The position numbers and the translations under genes were made by a program. 64,000 nucleotides of DNA from Alkalicella caledoniensis (GTDB lineage Bacteria > Bacillota > Proteinivoracia > Proteinivoracales > Proteinivoracaceae): contig NZ_CP058559.1 of assembly GCF_014467015.1 (NCBI RefSeq), positions 2,790,001 to 2,854,000 of the forward strand, read 5' to 3'. How positions within the stretch are numbered: position 1 is the first letter of the stretch; every line of letters begins with the position of its first letter. Shown here piece after piece: positions 7,570 to 49,909 of the stretch. The notes under the pieces were generated by a model. The model was not told the DNA's origin and did not search any database. It saw only the letters and a list, made by a program, of their open reading frames with translations.

Positions 7570-9318
7570 ATGGAAAGAACACATTATTGTGGAAACGTAA
7601 CTGAAGAGTTTATTGGCCAAAAAGTAAGTATTAAAGGATGGGTAGCTAAACGACGTGACCTGGGAAGCCTAATATTTTTGGACCTAAGGGACAGAGAAGG
7701 AATAGTGCAATGTGTAATAAACAACGATAACCCAGAGGCATTTCAAGTAGGAGAGAAAATTAGGGGAGAATATGTCGTAGAAGTTGTAGGGGAAGTAGTG
7801 GAAAGAAGTTCTGCAAATCCTAACATCAAAACAGGAAAAATAGAGATCATCGTTGAAAAAATTAACATTCTAAACACCGCAAACACAACTCCATTTTATA
7901 TAACTGATGAGTCAGATGTAGACCCTAACCTAAGGTTGAAACATCGTTACCTAGACCTAAGAAGGCCGAAGATGCTCAACAACCTCATGGTCAGAAGTAA
8001 AACCGCTAAAGTTATGAGGGACTACCTAGACAACCATGGCTTTGTTGAAGTAGAAACACCTATCCTAACTAAAAGTACTCCAGAGGGTGCTAGGGATTAT
8101 GTTGTACCAAGTCGTATTTCCCCAGGTTCTTTTTATGCCCTACCTCAATCCCCACAATTATTTAAACAATTACTTATGGTATCTGGTTTAGACAGGTACT
8201 ATCAAATAGCTCGCTGTTTCAGGGATGAAGACCTAAGGGCTGATAGACAACCTGAATTTACTCAGGTCGATATTGAGGTATCTTTCCCTTCAAGGGATAG
8301 CTTCTTCACCTTAATGGAAGGATTAGTGAAAGATGTCTTTAGTAAAGTAAAAGGTGTGGAAATTCAAACACCATTTAAACACATGGACTATCAAGAGGCC
8401 ATGAACAAATACGGTTCTGACAAACCAGATACACGTTTTGGTTTAGAGATAAACGACATATCAGAAATAGTTAAAGGTTCAGAATTCAAGGTATTTGCTT
8501 CACCCCTATCATCAGGAGGTACAGTTCGAGCAATAAAAGCATCAAGCACAGAAGGATTTAGCCGTAAGGAAATAGATGAGTTAACAGATTTCGTAAAAAG
8601 GTATGGTGCCAAAGGACTAGCTTGGATTGCAATAAAGGGTGGAGAAGTAAAGTCTCCAATAGCTAAATTCCTATCAGAAGAAGAGCTACAAGGAATTATA
8701 ACCCAAATGGAAGCAACAGATGGAGATACTATTCTAATAGTTGCAGATACCATTAAAGTAACCTTACAATCCCTAGGGGCGTTGAGAATACACATAGCTA
8801 AAAAGCTAAATCTGATTGACAACAAATTAATGAAGTTCCTATGGGTGGTAAACTTCCCAATGTTTGATTACGATGAAGAAGAAGATAGATATGTTGCTGC
8901 ACATCATCCATTTACATCACCATTGGCAGAAGATGTCCACCTATTGGACACAGACCCTACAAAAGTAAGGGCAAATGCGTATGACATGGTATATAACGGA
9001 CAAGAGATAGCTGGAGGAAGTATAAGGATTCATGAAGATGAAATTCAAAAGAAAGTATTCAAAGCCATAGGTCTAACTGAAGAAATGGCACAAGAGAAAT
9101 TCGGTTTCTTACTTGAAGGCTTAAGCTTTGGAGCTCCCCCCCATGGAGGAATTGCCTTCGGTTTTGATAGACTAATAATGGAAATGGTAGACACAGAAAA
9201 TATAAGGGACGTAATAGCATTTCCGAAAACAACAAGCGCATCAGACCTAATGACCCAGGCACCATCAACAATAGATGAAAAACAACTGGAAGAATTGAAG
9301 ATAGAGACGGTAAAGTAG
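7570..9318 (+). CDS. aspS: Aspartyl-tRNA synthetase
   Basis: A 582-residue class II synthetase that charges tRNA-Asp in the cytoplasm. It has the N-terminal OB-fold anticodon-binding domain (residues 1-105), the motif 2 segment FRDEDLRADRQPEFTQ, a GAD insertion domain (about 290-420) and motif 3 GIAFGFDRL near residue 535. This is the full bacterial-type architecture. ATAAAAGGAG lies ahead of the ATG. It is controlled by the upstream Asp T-box. Many Clostridia have hisS just before aspS; none is present here. Whether the enzyme also charges tRNA-Asn cannot be told from the sequence alone. Confidence 0.97.
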   Translation: MERTHYCGNVTEEFIGQKVSIKGWVAKRRDLGSLIFLDLRDREGIVQCVINNDNPEAFQVGEKIRGEYVVEVVGEVVERSSANPNIKTGKIEIIVEKINILNTANTTPFYITDESDVDPNLRLKHRYLDLRRPKMLNNLMVRSKTAKVMRDYLDNHGFVEVETPILTKSTPEGARDYVVPSRISPGSFYALPQSPQLFKQLLMVSGLDRYYQIARCFRDEDLRADRQPEFTQVDIEVSFPSRDSFFTLMEGLVKDVFSKVKGVEIQTPFKHMDYQEAMNKYGSDKPDTRFGLEINDISEIVKGSEFKVFASPLSSGGTVRAIKASSTEGFSRKEIDELTDFVKRYGAKGLAWIAIKGGEVKSPIAKFLSEEELQGIITQMEATDGDTILIVADTIKVTLQSLGALRIHIAKKLNLIDNKLMKFLWVVNFPMFDYDEEEDRYVAAHHPFTSPLAEDVHLLDTDPTKVRANAYDMVYNGQEIAGGSIRIHEDEIQKKVFKAIGLTEEMAQEKFGFLLEGLSFGAPPHGGIAFGFDRLIMEMVDTENIRDVIAFPKTTSASDLMTQAPSTIDEKQLEELKIETVK

Positions 9319-9319
9319 G

Positions 9320-9416
9320 ATTTAGGAGTTAGGAGTTAGGAGTTAGGGGTTAGGGTGAGTAATAAGAAATAAGCAACGAACCAACTAATTAACTCACCAA
9401 CTCACCACTAACTAAA
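9320..9416. repeat. Short tandem AGGAGTT repeats with inverted continuation
   Basis: Three to four imperfect 7-8 bp units of the TTAGGAG/TTAGGGG type run from 9321 to 9357. About 25 bp later comes CTCACCAACTCACCACTAAC, roughly the reverse complement of the same motif. Low-complexity intergenic DNA; no function is evident. Confidence 0.5.
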
Positions 9417-25806: not shown

Positions 25807-25840
25807 AACAAGCTGTCGTTGGATGGCTTGTTTTTTTCTT
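25807..25840 (+). terminator. Intrinsic terminator
   Basis: ACAAGC / GGCTTGT stem (loop TGTCGTTGGAT) with preceding A run and following T run. Confidence 0.7.
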
Positions 25841-25844
25841 GTCA

Positions 25845-25985
25845 AAGCTGGTAAGAACCGTGAAAGAATCTATTCTGCCGGCAACAGTGGGCCGAAAGTC
25901 CTGGCTGTTAAAAGGTCTGTGTCCATGCTCCAAGCAGGAAAAGAACTCCTCTATGTCAAATACACTAAATATAAACAACTAGGGG
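25845..25985 (+). other. GC-richer leader ahead of the sigma-54 activator, possible structured RNA
   Basis: Between the terminator and the activator start lies about 140 nt with several short complementary segments (AGAAT/ATTCT, GCCGG/CCTGGC, AACAG/CTGTT) and a GTGAAAGA...CTGCCGGCAACAGTGG stretch that vaguely recalls cobalamin or other riboswitch cores. I cannot assign it to a known class. The same stretch is open in the activator frame but lacks a credible start. Confidence 0.3.
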
Positions 25986-25993
25986 GAGTAACC

Positions 25994-27403
25994 ATGTCTG
26001 AAACAACAATTTCCACACAAGAGACTGAACTACAAAAACTCAAAGAAAGTATGGCAATGATGGACGAACTTTGGGATAATGCATCCTATGGCATGGTACT
26101 TGTAGATGAAAAGGGCGCTATCGTAAAATGGAACTACGAAAAGTTCCTAGGTATTTCCGAAAAAGATGTATTAGGAAAGCCTGTTCAAGACGTCATTCAA
26201 AACACTCGCCTTCACATAGTAGTTAAAACAGGAAAAAAGGAAATATGCGACGTGCAAGAAATAAATGGTCATAATGTTATCACATCAAGAGTTCCAATTA
26301 AAAAGGATGGCAAAATAATAGGAGCTGCTGGTACCATACTATTTAGCGACACCAGTGAACTCCACTCACTAGCTAAAAAAATGCAAACCCTTGAAGATAC
26401 TTTAAGTAAGTATAAAGGTGAACTAAGTAAGCTATTAGAAGCTAAATTTTCATTTGAGGATATAGTAACTAGCAACCCCAAAATGATGGAACTGAAAAAT
26501 ATAGCTAAAAGGGTAGCAAAAACAAACTCTACGGTACTAATACAAGGAGAAAGTGGGACAGGTAAAGAACTTTTTGCCCATGCTATACATAAAGAAAGCT
26601 TAAGGAGATACGGAAACTTTGTAACATTAAACTGTGCAGCAATTCCTAAAGAACTACTAGAAGCAGAACTATTTGGATATGAAGAAGGAGCTTTCACAGG
26701 AGCAAAAAAAGGCGGAAAGATAGGTAAATTTGAGCTTGCAGCAGGGGGCACTATCTTACTAGACGAAATTGGTTCTATGCCCTATGAAATGCAATCAAAG
26801 TTACTAAGGGTATTAGAATCTAAAGAGTTTGAACGTGTAGGAGGAACAAGGCCCATAAAACTAGATGCTAGAATAATATCCTCCACAAACGAAAATCTTG
26901 AAAACGAAGTACAAAGGGGAGAATTCCGTAGGGACTTATACTATAGACTAAACGTAATAAAGATAGATATTCCCCCCCTTAGGAACCGTTTAGAGGACAT
27001 AGAGCTACTTTCTAAAAACGTAACTCAAAAACTGGTGTCTGACCTTCAAGTAAACAAAAAAATTCTAGCCCAAGAAACAATTGATAATCTTAAAAGCCAC
27101 CACTGGCCAGGTAATGTAAGGGAACTGAGGAATGTACTAGAGCGAGCTATAAATTTTGCCCCAAAAACAGTGATTTTACCAGAAAATCTTCCAGAATATA
27201 TTATCAGAAACAATAAAAAAACCAGTACAACCACTACAAACAAAACCCTCAAAGAAATAGTAGAAAAAACGGAAATAGAAGCAATAAAACAAGCCATAAC
27301 AAAAGCTCAAGGGAACAGAACCCTAGCAGCCCAACAGCTAAACATACATAGAACGTCATTATACAAAAAGATGGAAAAATACGGAATGCAAATTGAAGAT
27401 TAG
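25994..27403 (+). CDS. Sigma-54-dependent transcriptional activator with PAS domain
   Basis: A 469-residue bacterial enhancer-binding protein. A PAS sensor (about residues 15-120) and short coiled coil precede an AAA+ domain with Walker A GESGTGKELFA (~residue 182), the sigma-54-contacting loop GAFTGA (~235), Walker B ILLDEIGS and an arginine-finger region. A C-terminal Fis-type HTH (GNRTLAAQQLNIHRTSLYKKM) follows. AGGGGGAG lies before ATG 25994; the longer frame from 25823 runs through the leader. The only clear -24/-12 promoter in the window is ahead of the ato operon 3.4 kb downstream, a plausible target. Confidence 0.93.
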   Translation: MSETTISTQETELQKLKESMAMMDELWDNASYGMVLVDEKGAIVKWNYEKFLGISEKDVLGKPVQDVIQNTRLHIVVKTGKKEICDVQEINGHNVITSRVPIKKDGKIIGAAGTILFSDTSELHSLAKKMQTLEDTLSKYKGELSKLLEAKFSFEDIVTSNPKMMELKNIAKRVAKTNSTVLIQGESGTGKELFAHAIHKESLRRYGNFVTLNCAAIPKELLEAELFGYEEGAFTGAKKGGKIGKFELAAGGTILLDEIGSMPYEMQSKLLRVLESKEFERVGGTRPIKLDARIISSTNENLENEVQRGEFRRDLYYRLNVIKIDIPPLRNRLEDIELLSKNVTQKLVSDLQVNKKILAQETIDNLKSHHWPGNVRELRNVLERAINFAPKTVILPENLPEYIIRNNKKTSTTTTNKTLKEIVEKTEIEAIKQAITKAQGNRTLAAQQLNIHRTSLYKKMEKYGMQIED

Positions 27404-27436: not shown

Positions 27437-27722
27437 GTAGCCAAGGCTTCAGCCTTGTGCGACTTTCGTAAGCCACCCAAGCAGGTCCACCCACGGTAAA
27501 CCATGGGCTACAACAGCTATTTCGGTGGCAAAAATTCACCCATCTCCAACCCGTCGTAGCCAAAGCTTTAGCCTTGTGCGACCCCCGTAAGCGTCCAAGC
27601 AGGTCGACCCACGGTAAACCATGGGCTACAACAGCTCATTTCGGTGGCAAAAATTCACCCATCTCCAGCCCATTGTAGCCAAGGCTTCAGCCTTGTGCGA
27701 CTCCCAAATGACCCCGCGGTAA
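27437..27722. repeat. RAYT-associated BIME array, upstream block (3 units)
   Basis: Units start with GTAGCC at 27437, 27556 and 27675, a 119-bp period. Each full unit has one REP, GTAG plus palindrome CAAGGCT-TC-AGCCTTG, and about 55 bp on an inverted REP, GTAG plus CCCATGGTTTACC-type palindrome on the minus strand ending GGGCTAC. The third unit is cut after its first REP by the transposase gene. Confidence 0.9.
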
Positions 27723-27734
27723 AGGAGGAAATAC

Positions 27735-28208
27735 ATGGCTAAATTAAAAAGATACTATGAAGAAGGAGCAGTCTACTTTGTTACAACCACAACTCATAAT
27801 AGAACCCCCATATTTAATGATGAAGAAACATGCAATATGCTAATAGAAGTGATTCTGCAAAAAAAGGAGTCCCTTGACTTCGATGTATATGGATTTGTAA
27901 TAATGCCTGACCATGTACATGTGATGATACAACCCCAGGGTACGAAGAACCTATCAGAAATAATTGGACAGATAAAAGGATTATTTAGTAAACAATACAA
28001 AGAAAGAAAAAATACAACACAGCAAATATGGCAGAAAAGGTTTTACGATTACGGAATAAGGAATTTGAAATCAGCCAAACAATCTCTAGATTATATACAC
28101 AAGAACCCATTGGAAGAAGGACTGAAGTTAGCCTTGAAGTATTCCAGCTACAGCTATTATTACCAAGGTGACGAAAGCTTCAAAAGATTATTAACACCAC
28201 TTACATAG
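27735..28208 (+). CDS. REP-associated tyrosine transposase (RAYT, IS200/IS605-related)
   Basis: A 157-residue Y1 transposase-like protein. It has the HUH motif in MPDHVHVMI (~residue 57-65) and a later DYIHKNPLEEG segment (~residue 118) typical of RAYTs. The catalytic Tyr is probably in the YDYGIRN or SLDYIH region; I cannot say which. Known RAYTs nick single-stranded REP DNA at the GTAG tetranucleotide. It is embedded between repeat units carrying GTAG-headed palindromes. AAAGGAGG precedes the ATG. No IS ends flank it, consistent with a domesticated single-copy gene. Confidence 0.9.
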   Translation: MAKLKRYYEEGAVYFVTTTTHNRTPIFNDEETCNMLIEVILQKKESLDFDVYGFVIMPDHVHVMIQPQGTKNLSEIIGQIKGLFSKQYKERKNTTQQIWQKRFYDYGIRNLKSAKQSLDYIHKNPLEEGLKLALKYSSYSYYYQGDESFKRLLTPLT

Positions 28209-28265
28209 CAGTTAAACGCCACACTTCGCTGATCTAATTTGTGTCACCCATTCCCCAACCCCATT

Positions 28266-29300
28266 GTAGCCAATGCTTCAGCCTTGTGCGACCCCCGTAA
28301 GTCACCCAAGCAGGTCCACCCACGGTAAACCATGGGCTACAACAGCTATTTCGGTGGAAAAAATCCACCCATCTCCAGCCCATTGTAGCCAAGGCTTTAG
28401 CCTTGTGCGACCTCCGTAAGCGTCCCAAGCAGGCCCACCCATGGTAAGCCATGGGCTACAACAGCTATTTCGGTGGCAAAAATCCACCCATCTCCAGTCC
28501 ATTGTAGCCAATGCTTTAGCCTTGTGCGACCCCCGTAAGCGTCCCAAACAGGTCCACCCATGGTAAACCATGGGCTACAACAGCTATTTCGGTGGCAAAA
28601 ATCCACCCATCTCCAGCCCATTGTAGCCAATGCTTCAGCCTTGTGCGACCCCCGTAAGCGTCCCAAGCAGGTCTACCCACGGTAAACCATGGGCTACAAC
28701 AGCTATTTTTGGTGGCAAAAAAATCCCACTCCCCAACCCCATTGTAGCCAATGCTTTAGCCTTGAGCGACCCCCTTGCGCAACCCAAACAGGTCCACCCA
28801 TGGTAAACCATGGGCTACAACAGCACATTTCGGCGGCAGAAAACTCCCGCTCCCCAGCCCCAATGTAGCCAAGGCTTAAGCCTTGTGCGACCCACGCAAG
28901 CACCCAAGCAGGTCCACCCATGGTAAACCATGGGCTACAACAGCACATTTCGGCGGCAGAAAACTCCCGCTCCCCAGCCCCGTTGTAGGCAAGGCTTTAG
29001 CCTTGTGCGACCCGCATAAGCGTCCCAAGCAGGTCCACCCATGGTAAACCATGGGCTACAACAGCACATTTCGGTGGACAGAAAACTCCCACACCCCAGC
29101 CACATGTAGCCAAGGCTTTAGCCTTGTGCGACCCACATAAGCGTCCCAAGCAGGTCCACCCATGGTAAACCATGGGCTACAACAGCACATTTCGGTGGAC
29201 AGAAAACTCCCGCTCCCCAGCCCCATTGTAGCCAAGGCTTCAGCCTTGTGCGACCCACAAGCCACCCAAGCAGTTCAACCCACGGTTAACCGTACCACAA
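28266..29300. repeat. RAYT-associated BIME array, downstream block (9 units)
   Basis: GTAG-headed units begin at 28266, 28385, 28504, 28623, 28744, 28865, 28985, 29106 and 29228, a period of 119-122 bp. The first REP is GTAGCCAAGGCTTCAGCCTTG with scattered changes; one copy reads GTAGGC. The opposed REP ends ACCATGGGCTAC. The intervening 44-bp spacer (ACAGCTATTTCGGTGGCAAA and on) is also conserved. The last unit has a decayed second REP. Frames open in the minus direction across these units come from repetition, not coding. Confidence 0.92.
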
Positions 29301-29452: not shown

Positions 29453-29560
29453 ATGATTAGCGACATTAGTGATATCGGCGGCATTAAATTCATTTTAAGA
29501 TTAAAATTTAGGAGGAGTAATCATGTTGTTACCATTTACAAAGGAAGGAAAGGTACTTAA
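29453..29560 (+). CDS. Possible 35-residue leader ORF overlapping the GNAT gene
   Basis: ATG 29453 has a very strong RBS (AAAGGTGGTGG, 29437-29447). The frame starts MISDISDIGGIKF and ends at TAA 29558-29560, overlapping the first 38 bases of the GNAT gene in another frame. It may couple translation or be a relic. No family is recognised. Confidence 0.35.
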   Translation: MISDISDIGGIKFILRLKFRRSNHVVTIYKGRKGT

Positions 29561-30326
29561 TGAAAAGCCATTTATTGACTATGAGGTTCAATTCAATCTA
29601 ATTCATAGGATAGCAGATGACGAAGGAGCATTTCTGCTACGCTCAGAAGACAATAGCTTAATAATAGCCCAATCAAATATAAAGTTTCCAATGTGGGTTT
29701 GGGTAAACCCAAAGGCTAAAATAAATATACAGAAAGTTATCAAAAAGGTTCATGAGGTTTTTCAGAAACAAGAGAGTTTCAAAATTGTAAGTACACCAGA
29801 ATTTATGAGTTTATTTTTTGAAAAATATAAATGTCAGCACAGGATAGAAATGGAAATGGAATCATATCAGTGTAAAGGGGTTGTAAATCCTAAACACACA
29901 CAAGGAGAACTAACTCTGCCTACAATGGATAATTTGGAAACTATAGCAGAATTTTGTGTAGGATTTATATACGATGGATTTGGTAAAAATGTTTCTAAGG
30001 AAAGTCAAATGGAAAGTGGAAAGAGACTAATACAGTCTGGCAATCTATACACACTTAAAGTAGATGATGAGATTGTTTCCATGGCCAACATTGCACATCG
30101 ATCTCCAAGGCATGGAAGAATTAACAATGTCTATACTCCGCCAACTCATAGAAAAAAAGGATATGCCAGTAAGCTGGTTGCAGATTTAAGTAAGTTGATT
30201 CTAGAAGAGGGACTCACCCCGATACTGTTTACTGATCTAAGCAATCAAACATCAAATAAGGTTTATAAAGATATTGGTTACACAGAGTGTGGCAAAGTAG
30301 TCAACTATGAAGTAAAAAAGCATTAG
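29523..30326 (+). CDS. GNAT family N-acetyltransferase
   Basis: A 267-residue protein whose C-terminal half is a GNAT fold: VYTPPTHRKKGYASKLV (acetyl-CoA pyrophosphate loop R/Q-x-x-G-x-A type, ~residue 203-219) and LFTDLSNQTSNKVYKDIGY. The N-terminal half is a divergent domain, as in several Firmicute GNATs of this length. AGGAGG (29511-29516) precedes the ATG. The substrate is unknown. It is separated from the ato operon by a REP unit and a terminator-like hairpin. Confidence 0.82.
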   Translation: MLLPFTKEGKVLNEKPFIDYEVQFNLIHRIADDEGAFLLRSEDNSLIIAQSNIKFPMWVWVNPKAKINIQKVIKKVHEVFQKQESFKIVSTPEFMSLFFEKYKCQHRIEMEMESYQCKGVVNPKHTQGELTLPTMDNLETIAEFCVGFIYDGFGKNVSKESQMESGKRLIQSGNLYTLKVDDEIVSMANIAHRSPRHGRINNVYTPPTHRKKGYASKLVADLSKLILEEGLTPILFTDLSNQTSNKVYKDIGYTECGKVVNYEVKKH

Positions 30327-30403: not shown

Positions 30404-30523
30404 GAACCATGGGATACAACAGTACATTTCCGTGGCAGAAAACTCCCACTCCCCAGCCGTTGTAGCCAATGCTTTAGCCTTGTGCGACCCTCGCAATCAA
30501 ACACTGTAGCCATATGGCTACAG
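30404..30523. repeat. Orphan BIME unit and perfect GTAG palindrome
   Basis: A decayed unit end (ACCATGGGATACAACAG), the conserved spacer and a REP starting GTAGCC at 30462 are present. It ends with CTGTAGCCATATGGCTACAG (30504-30523), a perfect 20-bp palindrome with GTAG at both strands' 5' ends. Confidence 0.8.
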
Positions 30524-44488: not shown

Positions 44489-44525
44489 ATCCCCTGAGCA
44501 GTTCAAGCAGCCCAGGGGATTTATT
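44489..44525 (+). terminator. Terminator after metY
   Basis: AAATCCCCTG / CAGGGGATTT with a loop containing GTTCAAGCAGC, followed by ATTATT. Confidence 0.75.
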
Positions 44526-44592
44526 ATTTATTATCTATTATCTAATATATATTATCTATTATTTATTATCTATCATCTATCATCTATCATCT
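44519..44592. repeat. Low-complexity ATTATCT / ATCATCT heptamer tract
   Basis: About ten imperfect 7-bp units (ATTATCT changing to ATCATCT near 44570) lie between metY and the convergent small membrane-protein gene. It is a simple repeat likely to vary in length. Confidence 0.7.
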
Positions 44593-49768: not shown

Positions 49769-49786
49769 GTAGCCAAGGCTTAAGCC
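49769..49786. repeat. Solo first-family REP
   Basis: GTAGCCAAGGCTTAAGCCTTGG: GTAG followed by the perfect palindrome CCAAGGCTTAAGCCTTGG. It is 20 kb from the main array. Confidence 0.75.
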
Positions 49787-49909
49787 TTGGACCCAACAAA
49801 ACTATCCTAAATAGTACATAAGTAACAACAAGCAGGAAAAACAGCCTTTGAAATCGAAATAACTATATAAATACCACTTGTTTGCACTAAGCTAAGGGAG
49901 GAAAAATTA

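Follow-up and report, generated by a model that had tools for sequence, protein, structure and literature searches.

The RAYT gene and its enclosing array

The window analysed here, a 64,000-nucleotide stretch of the Alkalicella caledoniensis genome, carries a repeat array at 27437-29291 between a gene for a sigma-54-dependent activator (25823-27403) and one for a GNAT acetyltransferase (29523-30326). The array encloses a gene for a RAYT (TnpA-REP) protein and contains 12 GTAG-headed REP hairpins, all on the plus strand, with the REP sequence GTAGCCAAGGCTTYAGCCTTG; three of them precede the RAYT coding sequence and nine follow it, just as the initial annotation of this DNA had it. Within each block, the REPs succeed one another every 118-122 bp, and in 10 of the 12 units an opposed GTAG-headed palindrome on the minus strand, the iREP (GTAGCCCATGGTTTACC(A/G)TGGGT), is found about 30 nt past the REP hairpin. 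This alternation at regular spacing is that by which BIMEs are defined, namely regularly spaced REPs in alternating orientation (Nunvar 2010, PMC2817692).

27404-27436, plus strand: leader ahead of unit 1, ACCCATTCCCCACCCCCATT, which recurs ahead of unit 4
27437-27555, plus strand: unit 1, REP 27437-27457 (plus), iREP 27489-27511 (minus)
27556-27674, plus strand: unit 2, REP 27556-27576 (plus), iREP 27607-27629 (minus)
27675-27734, plus strand: unit 3, split by the RAYT gene, REP 27675-27695 and a half-iREP remnant
27735-28208, plus strand: RAYT/TnpA-REP gene, 157 aa, with HUH motif DHVH (H60, H62), WQ motif and catalytic tyrosine Y120 in YIHKNP
28244-28265, plus strand: second leader, ACCCATTCCCCAACCCCATT, 3' of the RAYT gene
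28266-29227, plus strand: units 4-11, REPs starting at 28266, 28385, 28504, 28623, 28744, 28865, 28985 and 29106
28318-28340, 28437-28459, 28556-28578 and 28675-28697, minus strand: first four iREPs of units 4-11
28796-28818, 28916-28938, 29037-29059 and 29158-29180, minus strand: last four iREPs of units 4-11
29228-29291, plus strand: unit 12, REP 29228-29248 and a decayed iREP
30420-30500, plus strand: outlying decayed unit past the GNAT gene, REP 30462-30482
49769-49789, plus strand: solo REP of the same family as the array, intergenic

The array had been described as one of twelve REP/iREP units, which holds for the REPs and their regular spacing, whereas the complete REP+iREP units number 10 in a strict count, units 3 and 12 being incomplete. 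The third unit is indeed cut right before the gene: the 474-bp RAYT gene splits it, leaving the REP intact and the iREP cut down to CCCGCGGTAAA ahead of the ribosome-binding site. Past the gene, the array resumes with the leader of unit 1 (ACCCATTCCCCAxCCCCATT). In unit 12 the REP is present and the partner iREP has decayed, and a thirteenth, decayed unit is located at ~30420-30500.

The units are 77-95% identical within the array, neighbours being most alike, and two spacer types were distinguished, one in units 1-6 and the other in units 8-11, with unit 7 intermediate. This is the pattern that successive duplications of adjacent units would leave. Tandem Repeats Finder gave scores of 450 and 1446 for the array. 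Moreover, the REP and iREP hairpins were found to be more stable than dinucleotide shuffles when folded as single-stranded DNA (z of about -2.6 to -2.8). A CRISPR-like array was ruled out, since the spacers are repeated rather than unique, as was a phage or plasmid origin, the array DNA being unmatched in phages and plasmids and a search of viral contigs yielding no relative. Elsewhere in the window, an IS1634-family transposase lies at the edge (67-1809), and two heptamers occur in tandem (TATTATC x10 at 44522-44592 and TAGGAGT x5.6 at 9316-9354).

The 157-aa product has Y1_Tnp as its sole Pfam domain (1.7e-15) and scores 125.6 bits against the NCBIfam model NF047646 (REP_Tyr_transpos), for which the cut-off is 80. 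Its best PDB match is 4er8, the E. coli TnpA-REP bound to a REP hairpin, both by sequence (3.7e-15) and by fold (Foldseek 2.5e-10 on an AlphaFold2 model with a pLDDT of 94.9); weak protoglobin matches in the PDB sequence search were taken as chance. Across a 25-sequence alignment, the HUH histidines H60 and H62 and Y120 show full or nearly full conservation, and N124 and P125 of the YIHKNP motif are also conserved among the aligned relatives. When motifs were compared, DHVH, WQ and YIHKNP appeared intermediate between Quentin subclasses 2.5, 2.6 and 2.7. PADLOC matched the RAYT to no defence gene. The gene is flanked on both sides by GTAG-headed palindromes, as befits a RAYT. By every feature that can be tested in sequence, the product is a RAYT, and its gene is apparently intact. 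The RAYT model and 4er8 confirm the pairing of a RAYT with opposed GTAG-headed REPs that was first proposed for this locus.

REP copies across the genome

Searching the 3.70-Mb genome with the REP pattern, allowing up to 3 mismatches, returned 62 matches, compared with 0 for a reversed-pattern control. These copies fall into 23 loci when clustered at 3 kb, nearly all of them intergenic. The initial annotation had taken further copies elsewhere in the genome as its test; they exist for the REP, whereas the iREP pattern gave 10 matches genome-wide, every one inside the RAYT array, indicating that no spread of the array unit as such has taken place. The REP+iREP pair is thus not dispersed according to the genome-wide iREP search, although dispersal is not required of every BIME. 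Outside the RAYT array, conservation is confined to TTGTAGCCAAGGCTTYAGCCTTGG and a short GACCCAC-like tail, with unrelated flanks, which points to the REP, and not the array unit, as the mobile or copied part.

Some of these copies form arrays of their own. Nine 68-bp units with the same REP are arranged head to tail, with no opposed partner and no RAYT nearby, at G000:C1:185097-185663 (locus L036; G000 being the A. caledoniensis genome). At 205 and 3110 kb, three units of ~131-134 bp each carry a different iREP as the opposed partner, again with no adjoining RAYT. Another abundant GTAG palindrome, GTAGGGTGCAGGGCTCCGAACCTGCCCGGACC, is often found 3' of the REP in the same orientation, so that head-to-tail pairs of two families result (in G000, around 691911-694703, 997601-1004071 and 2856677).

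GC skew and gene direction place the origin at ~1.9 Mb and the terminus at ~3.66 Mb. At 21 of the 23 REP loci, the sense of the GTAG strand is that of the leading strand, i.e., of the lagging-strand template (p = 6.6e-5), but the bias also follows gene direction and is therefore confounded, and it is absent in the relative G004 (10 of 17 clusters). For these reasons we do not regard the replichore bias as establishing a lagging-strand mechanism; the orientation at 21/23 loci fits IS200/IS605-type action on the lagging-strand template and is retained as weak support.

The same genome contains a second, different RAYT (G000:C1:2573106-2573760, locus L047:1607-2256) with the motifs NHIH and YIEENP. 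Its own GTAG palindrome, GTAGGGGGTCCCCTTGTGGGGCCCTGAC, is present on both flanks, with one base different on the far side, and has few further genomic copies.

Related RAYTs and the hairpin frame

We compared two genomes, G004 and G003, from another genus of the same family. In G004, a RAYT that is 38% identical is enclosed by a 19-unit array with 156 bp per unit, 4 units standing before the gene and 15 after it, and 11 of the unit sequences are identical. The opposed REPs of this array, GTAGCGGGGAATTCATTCCCCG and GTAGCAGGTAATTCATTGCCTG, are quite different from those of A. caledoniensis. This REP occurs 125 times in the G004 genome, often within additional arrays, vs 3 times in its congener G003, which is without a G004-type RAYT; RAYT and REP expansion thus co-occur in this relative. 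A second G004 RAYT, of another lineage, was also observed inside a tandem array, with units of 176-182 bp (L073:2752-7232) and unrelated opposed GTAG hairpins.

Further away in the phylum, G330 encodes a RAYT with 42% identity that has GTAG REPs on its flanks, including a 47-bp array of four, and in G037 a short RAYT lies between alternating GTAGGGGCGACC and opposed GTAGGGGCTGCC hairpins. The RAYT model was matched above its cut-off in 67 of 398 genomes of the phylum, and among the matches listed most are held by frames of 250-350 aa. No long arrays were seen around the other RAYT-model matches inspected in the phylum. Arrays with no RAYT nearby in relatives would have spoken against the pairing in the initial annotation. 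Some arrays, both in A. caledoniensis and in G004, do lack an adjoining RAYT, yet each lies in a genome with a RAYT, the three copies in G003 excepted. Long group-1-type Y1 proteins were also encountered (L040:1502-2443, 313 aa, and L041), the C-terminal part of which shows weak similarity to the DNA-binding end of DnaA; the surroundings of these two genes showed no GTAG REPs.

The REPs of three genera share GTAG followed by an 8-bp stem and a 2-nt loop, in the frame GTAGC-N6-TTYA-N6'-G. Stem pairs 2-7 vary among REP families in a complementary fashion and the apex TTYA is fixed; the three genera also have in common a C-G first stem pair, a T-A last pair and a T as first loop base, although the first stem pair is mismatched in array copies. 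T12, T13 and A15 are invariant in the 62 copies of A. caledoniensis, those within arrays not being independent, and position 14 is C, T or A. In the Marinomonas REPMb, with its loop T12T13T14A15, SELEX and mutation revealed a need for T12, T13 and A15, no constraint on base 14, and tolerance of changes at stem positions 2 and 3 (PMC8266576). The agreement of the TT.A apex with these determinants is, by analogy, the best pointer to how the RAYT may recognise its target. Many GTAG families have TY loops (PMC3733652), so that the TTYA apex is not unique to these REPs.

A probable REPtron and the rival explanations

We consider it very probable (about 0.88) that the locus is a REPtron, i.e., a chromosomal system of non-autonomous elements in which a domesticated IS200/IS605-type HUH/Y1 enzyme would act on its REP hairpins through cleavage and mobilisation, alongside array growth. 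The strand bearing GTAG and the hairpin would become single-stranded, most likely on the lagging-strand template, and the RAYT would bind the hairpin in this form, reading the GTAG foot and the TT.A apex. Y120 would then cut beside the hairpin and rejoin the DNA, so that REPs or REP pairs may be excised, copied or inserted elsewhere; such cutting and rejoining would have scattered solo REPs over intergenic sites. The alternating REP/iREP (BIME/REPIN) array probably arose for the most part as whole units of 119-122 bp were duplicated beside the gene. The identity of the enzyme, the cognate-type hairpins around its gene, the dispersal of the REP and the recurrence of the design in a relative all support the REPtron. 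Against it stand the array unit, which has not spread, its iREP being confined to the RAYT array, and the other REP arrays lying far from any RAYT in A. caledoniensis and G004.

A stronger version would have the RAYT make its enclosing array, cutting and rejoining at GTAG hairpins of the lagging-strand template so as to add or remove REP/iREP units; the array would then be a growing source of single REPs, and within the family this design would have arisen independently in different RAYT lineages whose REPs are unrelated. We regard this as rather unlikely, the local array being more simply explained by whole-unit duplication, homologous or replicative, whether or not RAYT cuts were the trigger. 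The array might instead be a passive satellite, its whole units multiplied by slippage or unequal crossing-over, in which the RAYT sits by chance. The close likeness of neighbouring units, long spacers included, the identical 156-bp units of G004 and the arrays lacking an adjoining RAYT in both genomes all favour such growth, but chance does not explain why two G004 RAYTs of different lineage also lie inside arrays, nor why further RAYTs are each flanked by their own, different REPs, and the REP core is scattered over 23 loci whose flanks are unrelated. We therefore hold the satellite explanation to be improbable, although an array that grows passively is compatible with REPs being spread by the RAYT.

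E. coli REPs are known to have roles such as terminator, mRNA stabiliser, gyrase site or IHF site, and the REPs described here lie between genes and are mostly oriented as the genes are, so that the array might mainly serve the host between the activator and GNAT genes, the RAYT being a relic. A relic agrees poorly with an intact gene and conserved catalytic residues; moreover, no T-run was found 3' of the hairpins, and an Rfam search returned no match, by which an Rfam RNA element was also rejected. This makes a mainly host function quite improbable. The shared enzyme superfamily might point to an ordinary insertion sequence of the IS200/IS605 type, the hairpins being subterminal; this reading was rejected on copy number and model scores and retains hardly any probability. 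The RAYT gene is single copy in its genome, where the other Y1 genes are 27-33% identical and where the multiple, nearly identical copies with defined ends on either side that typify such elements are lacking. The product scores 43.1 bits with the IS200 model, under the cut-off of 55, yet passes the RAYT cut-off. There is no TnpB-like ORF among the neighbouring ORFs, and the tyrosine motif is YIHKNP, not the Y[IV]ENQ of IS200 (PMC6006769).

RAYTs and REPtrons have been described already, as have BIMEs that alternate regularly and tandem REPIN clusters adjoining RAYTs. The initial annotation had set the regular tandem spacing apart from usual BIMEs, a view that published regular alternating BIMEs (PMC2817692) and tandem REPIN/REP arrays (PMC3116915) do not sustain. 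In E. coli and Xanthomonas campestris, BIMEs and clustered REPs likewise show regular alternation and two hairpin types, i.e., dimorphic REPs (PMC2817692, PMC3733652), and clustered GTAG families have been reported (PMC3733652); the hairpin sequences and the phylum differ from ours, and the stem here is without a bulge. In P. fluorescens SBW25, two REP types alternate in regular tandem REPIN/REP arrays, including arrays of 12 REPs with replichore-dependent orientation, and clusters adjoin each RAYT (Bertels and Rainey 2011, PMC3116915); there, however, the RAYT lies beside short clusters, the largest REPIN cluster having ~4 units, whereas here it lies inside a 12-REP array and in G004 inside one of 19 units. 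The REPtron Mb of Marinomonas sp. MWYL1 (group 3 TnpA-REP; PMC8266576) also combines a small TnpA-REP with a perfect, GTAG-preceded hairpin, an apex T-T-N-A with base 14 free and REPs concentrated near the gene. Its stem has 5 bp and begins 2 nt from GTAG, compared with 8 bp directly after GTAG here, and its host is a gamma-proteobacterium. Finally, the E. coli TnpA-REP (4er8) shares the fold, the HUH motif and the catalytic tyrosine at ~29% identity, but E. coli REPs need a stem bulge and the stems here are perfect.

What is fresh is the host lineage, the length of the array enclosing the gene, the recurrence of the design with unrelated REPs and the fixed hairpin frame. GTAG repeats have been listed for Proteobacteria, Cyanobacteria, Chloroflexi and the PVC group, Firmicutes being absent (PMC3733652), although a Firmicute case may have been published elsewhere, and a RAYT survey found REP-bearing subclasses mainly outside Firmicutes (PMC6006769). 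The unusual Firmicute setting claimed initially is thus upheld, though not for the regular array itself, and the locus adds a clear RAYT/REP system in a lineage outside the published GTAG REP listing. With unrelated REPs and related enzymes, the three genera are natural replicates, the frame being fixed and the stem changing in a complementary manner, which makes the recognition code of group-3-like TnpA-REPs testable; the G004/G003 pair offers a natural comparison of REP spread with and without a RAYT.
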